Shown one piece after another: positions 23,333 through 50,638 of a DNA stretch of 59,023 bases. The stretch is from Thermoproteota archaeon (GTDB lineage: Archaea > Thermoproteota > Nitrososphaeria_A > Caldarchaeales > Calditenuaceae), in the NCBI GenBank assembly GCA_030550155.1, contig JAUQPZ010000006.1, forward strand, positions 1-59,023, written 5' to 3'. Every line of letters begins with the position of its first letter. Positions within the stretch are counted from its first letter, which is position 1. A model generated the notes under the pieces. That model made no database searches and was not told where the DNA came from. It saw only the letters and a program-made list of their open reading frames with translations. A program made the position numbers and the translations under genes.

Positions 23333-23460
23333 AGCCCGGTCGTCTAGCGGCCAAACCCCCGGAGCAGGCCAGATATGAGGGGGCCAAGGATCCCGGGCTC
23401 TGGATCCAGCATCCTTGGAGGAGACCCCCGGGGACGCCGGTTCGAATCCGGCCCGGGCTA
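23333..23460 (+). tRNA. tRNA-Gln (anticodon CUG) with two introns
   Basis: acceptor AGCCCGG/CCGGGCT-A; 33-nt insertion bounded by GGCCAA repeats in D loop; second ~22-nt insertion after CTCTGGA; mature length 73 nt. Confidence 0.85.
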
Positions 23461-31772: not shown

Positions 31773-33461
31773 GTGGCCGTGATTGGCTCCGGTCTTGCGG
31801 GGTTGAGGGCTGCTATAGAGGCTGCAAGGACTGGGCGAGGAAAGGTTCGTGTCGCAGTTGTCACTAAAACTCAGCCCATGAGGTCTCACAGCGTATCAGC
31901 TGAGGGTGGCACGGCTGCCGTTCTTTATCCGGAGGAGGGCGACTCGTTTGAGTCACATATATGGGACACCGTGAAGGGCAGCGACTTTCTCGCTGACCAA
32001 GACGCGGTTGAGAGATATGTAAGCCTCGCACCTCTAGAGATTATACAGCTTGAACATTGGGGAATGCCTTGGTCTCGGAGGAAGGATGGAAAGATCGCTC
32101 AGAGATACTTTGGGGGGCAGAGCTACCCCCGCGCCTGCTATGCTGAGGACAGGGTTGGTTTTTACGAGATGAGCACACTCTACGATACCTGCCTGAAATA
32201 TGATGAGATAGTGTTTTACGATGAGTGGTATGCTACCAAGATATTGAAAAACAATGGGCGTTTCGCAGGCGTTGTAGCAATGAATCTGAAGAATGGGGAG
32301 CCCGCTGTCTTCAGCGCTAAGGCCGGGGTTCTGGCAACTGGCGGCGCAGGCAGGATATACAGCTTCGCCACATTTGGGCATAGCTCGACTCCCGACGGTT
32401 ACGCAATTGCATTCCGGGCAGGAATGCCGTTAAAGGATATGGAGTTTGTACAGTTCCACCCCACGGGCCTTGTCCCAAGCGGAATCCTGATCACTGAGGC
32501 GTCGCGAGGTGAGGGAGGGATTCTTCGTAACAAAAACGGCGAGAGGTTCATGGAGAGGTATGCCCCCAAGGCAAAAGACTTGGCACCTAGAGACATTGTT
32601 TCGCGGGCTATGGTAACCGAGATTAGAGAGGGCAGAGGGCTTAAGACGGAGGATGGGGAGGACTACCTTCTGCTCGACCTAACAGTCCTTGAACCAGAGA
32701 TAGTTAAGAAGAGATTGACGAGCATCAGGGAGATATGTATCCGCACGGCTAACATAGACCCGCTCAACGAACCCATACCTGTGAGGCCGGTCGCCCACTA
32801 TTACATGGGTGGCGTTGACGTAAACATTGACGGCGCAACAGAGTTACCGGGTCTCTGGGCGGCGGGAGAGGTATCCTGTGTCTCCATAAATGGCGCCAAC
32901 AGGCTGGGTTCAAACTCTACAAGCGAGTGCCTGGTTTGGGGCAGGATAACGGGGGAGCTGGCCGCGAGATTCGCGATGACTCATCAACCCGTCGAACCCG
33001 TAAAAGAGGACGTTGAATTAGAGGAGAGAAGAATATTTGATAAACTTTTGGGACCCGCGCCGAGGTTAAACCCGTACAACGTGAAGAGGGAGATTCAGTC
33101 TATCATGGAGCGGCATTTCCACGTTTTCAGAGAACAGGAGAGTATGGAGGAGGGTCTGAGAAAGCTGAGGAATTTGAGGGCTGAGATGGAGCTAGGAGTT
33201 GAGGATAAGAGCAGATACTACAACACGAACCTCATGAATGTCTTGGAAATTGAATGCATGATTGATGTTTGTGAAGTGATAGGCGCCGCCGCTGTCCATA
33301 GGCGTGAGAGCAGGGGCGCACACGCGAGGGTTGACTATCCGAAAAGAGACGACGAGAACTGGCTAAACCACATCTTAGCCTACAGGGTGGTCGGAGGAAT
33401 AGAATTCGCGTACAAACAAGTGGTCTTGACCAAATATAAGCCAGTGGAGCGCACCTACTAA
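31773..33461 (+). CDS. sdhA: succinate dehydrogenase/fumarate reductase flavoprotein subunit
   Basis: VIGSGLAGLRAAI, RSHSVSAEGGTAAV, FVQFHPTGL, RPVAHYYMGGVDVN. Confidence 0.88.
   Translation: MAVIGSGLAGLRAAIEAARTGRGKVRVAVVTKTQPMRSHSVSAEGGTAAVLYPEEGDSFESHIWDTVKGSDFLADQDAVERYVSLAPLEIIQLEHWGMPWSRRKDGKIAQRYFGGQSYPRACYAEDRVGFYEMSTLYDTCLKYDEIVFYDEWYATKILKNNGRFAGVVAMNLKNGEPAVFSAKAGVLATGGAGRIYSFATFGHSSTPDGYAIAFRAGMPLKDMEFVQFHPTGLVPSGILITEASRGEGGILRNKNGERFMERYAPKAKDLAPRDIVSRAMVTEIREGRGLKTEDGEDYLLLDLTVLEPEIVKKRLTSIREICIRTANIDPLNEPIPVRPVAHYYMGGVDVNIDGATELPGLWAAGEVSCVSINGANRLGSNSTSECLVWGRITGELAARFAMTHQPVEPVKEDVELEERRIFDKLLGPAPRLNPYNVKREIQSIMERHFHVFREQESMEEGLRKLRNLRAEMELGVEDKSRYYNTNLMNVLEIECMIDVCEVIGAAAVHRRESRGAHARVDYPKRDDENWLNHILAYRVVGGIEFAYKQVVLTKYKPVERTY

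Positions 33462-50533: not shown

Positions 50534-50638
<105 letters not shown>

Follow-up and report, generated by a model that had tools for sequence, protein, structure and literature searches.

Thermoproteales and other crenarchaea carry BHB-type (bulge-helix-bulge) tRNA introns at noncanonical positions, with up to three introns in a single gene (PMC3218864; PMC8450103), and tRNAscan-SE 2.0 lists 673 noncanonical introns from 217 archaeal genomes (PMC8450103). Among the closest described systems is Caldiarchaeum subterraneum, which has 13 intron-containing tRNAs, including three multi-intron tRNAs and introns in the D arm; one of its multi-intron tRNAs has the anticodon CUG and was printed as Glu (Sugahara et al., 2012, PMC3293823). 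The gene studied here, a tRNA-Gln(CUG) gene with two introns, occupies a 128-nt locus (23333-23460, forward strand) of the window, the whole stretch of 59,023 nt that was analyzed. It is a further case of this known class of multi-intron archaeal tRNAs, and it shares with the crenarchaeal genes the presence of BHB-type introns at noncanonical positions. We directly demonstrate its gene structure and junctions, its pairing and covariation, its conservation, and the presence of both EndA paralogues in the genome.

The host is a hot-spring archaeon of the Caldarchaeales (formerly Aigarchaeota), in or near the family Calditenuaceae, represented by a metagenome-assembled genome (MAG) of 1.44 Mb in 45 contigs with about 90% completeness. 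C. subterraneum is from the same order and also has introns both in the D arm and at 37/38. However, it belongs to another family, as the nearest named relatives of the present genome are Ca. Calditenuaceae. CUG is an anticodon of Gln, and we take L043 in our set to be the likely counterpart of the C. subterraneum multi-intron tRNA. The two lineages differ in that both Gln isoacceptor genes have the D intron in the present genome, whereas the UUG gene in the genus of L043 is intronless (L069-L071). A protein encoded next to the locus, presumably of the PAC2 family judging from its sequence, shares 73-77% identity with proteins from five database records.

Table 1. Features of the tRNA-Gln(CUG) locus in window coordinates, and the other tRNA-Gln gene of the genome. 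A slash within a bulge marks the cut.
Feature	Coordinates	Strand	Remarks
Exon 1	23333..23354	+	Acceptor 5' strand, U8 C9, D-stem 5' strand, D loop up to A21
Intron 1, 33 nt, position 21/22 (D arm)	23355..23387	+	Bulges AA/A (5') and AA/G (3')
Intron 1 central helix	GGCC 23349-23352 with GGCC 23382-23385	+	In the D-arm segment, the minimum-energy structure is the BHB
Loop motif GGYYRGR (here GGCCAGA) in intron 1	23367..23373	+	In 71/75 parsed D introns
Exon 2	23388..23403	+	D-stem 3' strand, C26, anticodon-stem 5' strand, loop C32-G37, anticodon CUG
Intron 2, 22 nt, canonical 37/38	23404..23425	+	Bulges GG/A (5') and AC/C (3')
Intron 2 helices	Central CTCT 23398-23401 with GGAG 23420-23423; inner TCCA/TGGA	+	
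Exon 3	23426..23460	+	C38, anticodon-stem 3' strand, variable loop, T arm, acceptor 3' strand, discriminator A73
L082, tRNA-Gln(UUG)	G000:C34, 5' half 32778-32794	-	D intron 31 nt, canonical intron 23 nt

We consider it nearly certain that 23333-23460 is a tRNA-Gln(CUG) gene, functional and present as a single copy, which is interrupted by two BHB-type introns and whose transcript would be spliced to 73 nt by heteromeric EndA and a tRNA ligase. The preliminary description had claimed that the locus yields a 73-nt tRNA once 33 and 22 nt are removed, and this was borne out. The spliced form is a cloverleaf within the 72-76 nt expected of an archaeal tRNA-Gln(CUG), with a CTG anticodon and fully paired D (4/4) and anticodon (5/5) stems, and ARAGORN calls it as a full-length tRNA-Gln(ctg). 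The sequence, the stems and the two GGCCAA copies (23349-23354 and 23382-23387) were likewise as described there. On the unspliced window, ARAGORN reported a 95-nt tRNA-Gln(ctg) at 23366-23460, with the right anticodon and with its 5' end inside the D intron; an Rfam tRNA search of the window and of the whole genome did not report the locus 23333-23460. The ARAGORN call, if taken as the true gene, would imply a single intron and a different 5' end. This is extremely improbable because that 5' end lies within a variable intron, while the actual 5' half, AGCCCGGTCGTCTAGCGGCCAA, shows conservation throughout the order and it is the spliced 73-nt form that is called full length.

The fact that standard finders mis-root or miss the locus might also be taken as a sign that it is a tRNA-Gln pseudogene in decay, disrupted by insertions that arose by chance, CAG being decoded by another gene. 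We give this reading hardly any credence, since every stem is intact, the gene is retained with compensatory changes in congeners and in nearly all genomes of the order, and the remaining Gln gene is a UUG gene that is itself intronic. A second CUG gene, which would have pointed to a decayed copy, was searched for in the genome (a MAG of about 90% completeness) and none was found. The sole other tRNA-Gln gene found was the UUG gene (L082), which has both introns as in the CUG gene. At this completeness an unseen second CUG gene is conceivable, although the congeners, which have the same tRNA-Gln(CUG) gene, also carry one copy each.

Motifs of the BHB type, whose absence was named earlier as a refuting outcome, are present at both junctions, each with a 4-bp central helix and 3-nt bulges. 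The canonical intron has a complete motif, in which the outer helix CCGGG/CCCGG and the inner helix TCCA/TGGA enclose the bulges GGA and ACC and the central helix CTCT/GGAG. The D-arm intron has a noncanonical BHB made of the GGCC/GGCC central helix and the bulges AAA and AAG. The D stem GTCT/GGAT serves as its outer helix. On the 5' side three bases (AGC) stay unpaired, and because of these extra bases the motif is a relaxed one. When the D-arm segment was folded alone, the BHB was the structure of minimum energy; unconstrained folding of the full GC-rich precursor, and likewise of the mature tRNA, did not return the native fold, so that energy alone is no proof of the BHBs.

The position of the D junction had been called ambiguous by reason of the repeats. 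Since GGCC is self-complementary, the two strands of the central helix resemble a direct repeat, which accounts for the ambiguity, and the relatives settle the matter. Among them the 3' GGCC copy varies (GGCT, GGTC, GGTT, GACT or GACC), and the intronless homologues L069-L071, L126 and L128 read AGCGGCCAAGGAT unbroken, with AGCGGCCAA directly followed by GGAT at the junction. Taken together, the variable 3' copy and the AGCGGCCAAGGAT kept in intronless relatives place the D intron from after A21 to before G22. The alternative that GGCCAA is a target-site duplication was considered and is unneeded, the copies being strands of a self-complementary helix with a 3' copy that varies in relatives.

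For the second intron, the preliminary description was right in placing about 22 nt after the anticodon loop and made the cut one base too late. A strict BHB cut falls after G37 (CTCTGG/A...AC/CCCCGG), and thus intron 2 is 23404-23425 and mature position 38 is C. It is unlikely, if less so than the readings above, that intron 2 of this same gene lies one base further (38/39) and that A38 is kept. The stems are identical whichever segment is removed, and A38 is found in L040, L034 and other intronless CUG relatives; however, by the 3-nt bulge rule the cut belongs at 37/38, and among relatives the base preceding the final C varies as intron bases do.

A pattern drawn from the 5' half matched 55 of 61 related genomes; of the 44 genomes of the order that were covered, 43 had a match. 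From 85 loci, 83 gene models were recovered, all of them 73 nt after splicing. The D intron (14-39 nt in parsed genes) was present in 75 of the 83, and all but one of these 75 also had the canonical intron (14-36 nt). The two-intron architecture recurs order-wide, well beyond chance. The D-arm central helix was fully paired (4/4) in 72 of 75 relatives, where exon GGUC often faced GACY, and position 34 covaries with its partner strand in the canonical central helix between CUG and UUG genes: with C34 this strand was mostly GGAG or GGGG, whereas with U34 it was most often GAAG. Both central helices show compensatory change, in sequences that are related and partly redundant. In a sample of 400 genomes of the phylum, tRNA-Gln with an insert of 10-40 nt at this D-loop position occurred in 86 (26 of 164 genera), so this intron position is common in the phylum. 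The earlier statement that multiple introns with one in the D loop are uncommon stands for archaea in general; it does not apply to Caldarchaeales, where the tRNA-Gln D-loop intron is the rule.

A separate observation concerns genus g10 (L091-L100). In three of its five genomes, the D introns of the CUG and UUG genes were separated by edit distances of only 0, 3 and 3, compared to a minimum of 4 and a mean of 8.9 for the same isoacceptor between genomes; the canonical introns had no such within-genome likeness. The likeness of the D introns suggests gene conversion of the 5' half between isoacceptor genes.

The D intron carries a conserved loop motif, GGYYRGR, in 71 of the 75 parsed cases, whereas shuffled introns gave it in about 1.6 genes, with a maximum of 7 (500 rounds). 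The motif can pair in two ways, each with 7/7 pairs in 70 of 70 genes. In pairing B its partner is U33-G37 together with canonical-intron bases 2-3, while base 1 is bulged; in pairing A/E it is the D-arm exon (U11-U13 and G18-C20a, with a 3-nt bulge), a configuration incompatible with the D-intron BHB. Of 499 scanned sites, that of pairing B was the best. A similar score was, however, reached on a subset by 16 of 150 permuted motifs, which makes pairing B not significant on its own. Duplex energies compared to shuffles did not separate the two pairings. The complementarity of GGYYRGR to two targets, the anticodon/5' splice site and the D-arm exon, is suggestive and unproven. One possibility, which we regard as doubtful, is that GGYYRGR is a selected "anti-anticodon" element that masks the 5' splice site and a central-helix strand of intron 2 and so orders splicing; the D-arm intron would then have to be removed before the canonical one.

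GGYYRGR was absent from the D introns of sampled genes without a canonical intron (L072, L127 and L201-L205), but it is also missing from L062, L086 and L125, which possess both introns; these absences are confined to few lineages. Family f10, whose sampled genes have the canonical intron, carries motif variants with one extra base, GGCTTAGA and GGACCAGA. In family f13, which we take to be Thermoproteaceae, tRNA-Gln has a D-loop intron at the same position as the present gene; unlike it, f13 D introns are without GGYYRGR and most sampled genes have no canonical intron. A YYAG sequence in D introns of family f7 was considered as the same motif and rejected, as by inspection it is accounted for by the inner helix URA/UYA.

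Other tRNA introns were seen along the way. A tRNA-Lys(UUU) gene of the window (about 50534-50638, forward strand) carries an intron of about 31 nt in its D arm, near 24/25, with the hairpin AAATATTACC-ATGA-GGTAATATTT; it scored under the Rfam cut-off (28.6 bits), was missed by ARAGORN, and was called as tRNA-Lys(ttt) when spliced at 24/25. In several genera the canonical introns of tRNA-Gln(UUG) include GGCCGC, for the most part within TGGCCGC, which is perfectly complementary to the D-loop exon GCGGCCA (L063, L073, L074, L088, L090, L091, L093, L095, L097, L116, L118, L121 and others). For UUG canonical introns, pairing with the D loop came to -9.9 kcal/mol, compared to -6.2 for shuffles. 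Canonical introns of tRNA-Ser(CGA) from two genera (L176, L177, L179-L183) have CUGGUC or UGGCC and can thereby pair with the D loops of the same genes, through the complementary GGCCA or GCCAG; those with CUGGUC may be linked to the GGYYRGR motif. L135 (G000:C28:3783-3887) is a tRNA-Asn(GUU) with an apparent intron in the variable/T-arm region.

The D-arm intron would require an enzyme tolerant of relaxed BHBs, because its D-stem outer helix is set off by the extra 5' AGC. Two tRNA-intron-endonuclease genes (PF01974) are present in the genome. The first paralogue aligns with crenarchaeal catalytic EndA over 171 residues (4e-53) and keeps the LKFGSDFAVY and GPGIDHAPF stretches. The second matches EndA chains at 2.7e-25, is diverged and, by inspection, is without the His stretch. 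Catalytic and non-catalytic subunits, the two parts of an (alpha-beta)2 enzyme, are thus both encoded, and the pair fits an alpha2-beta2 splicing enzyme that would perform the cleavage. In the proposed pathway, the 128-nt pre-tRNA would be transcribed and folded, heteromeric EndA (alpha and beta) would cleave both BHB-type motifs, and a tRNA ligase would join the exons into the 73-nt tRNA-Gln. The archaeal tRNA ligase is RtcB. Alpha2-beta2 EndA excises introns with relaxed BHBs, and such motifs also occur in the D loop (PMC6379350). Like the relaxed-BHB substrates of that enzyme, the present D-arm intron lies between the D stem and a 4-bp central helix, and its genome has heteromeric EndA genes.

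The gene model is now fixed for an essential tRNA of an uncultured archaeal order, one that common finders mis-root or miss, and the tRNA-Gln D-loop intron emerges as an order-wide feature and no oddity. If the GGYYRGR motif is functional, ordered splicing of multi-intron pre-tRNAs would become directly testable; if masking holds true, one tRNA intron would control the splicing of another.
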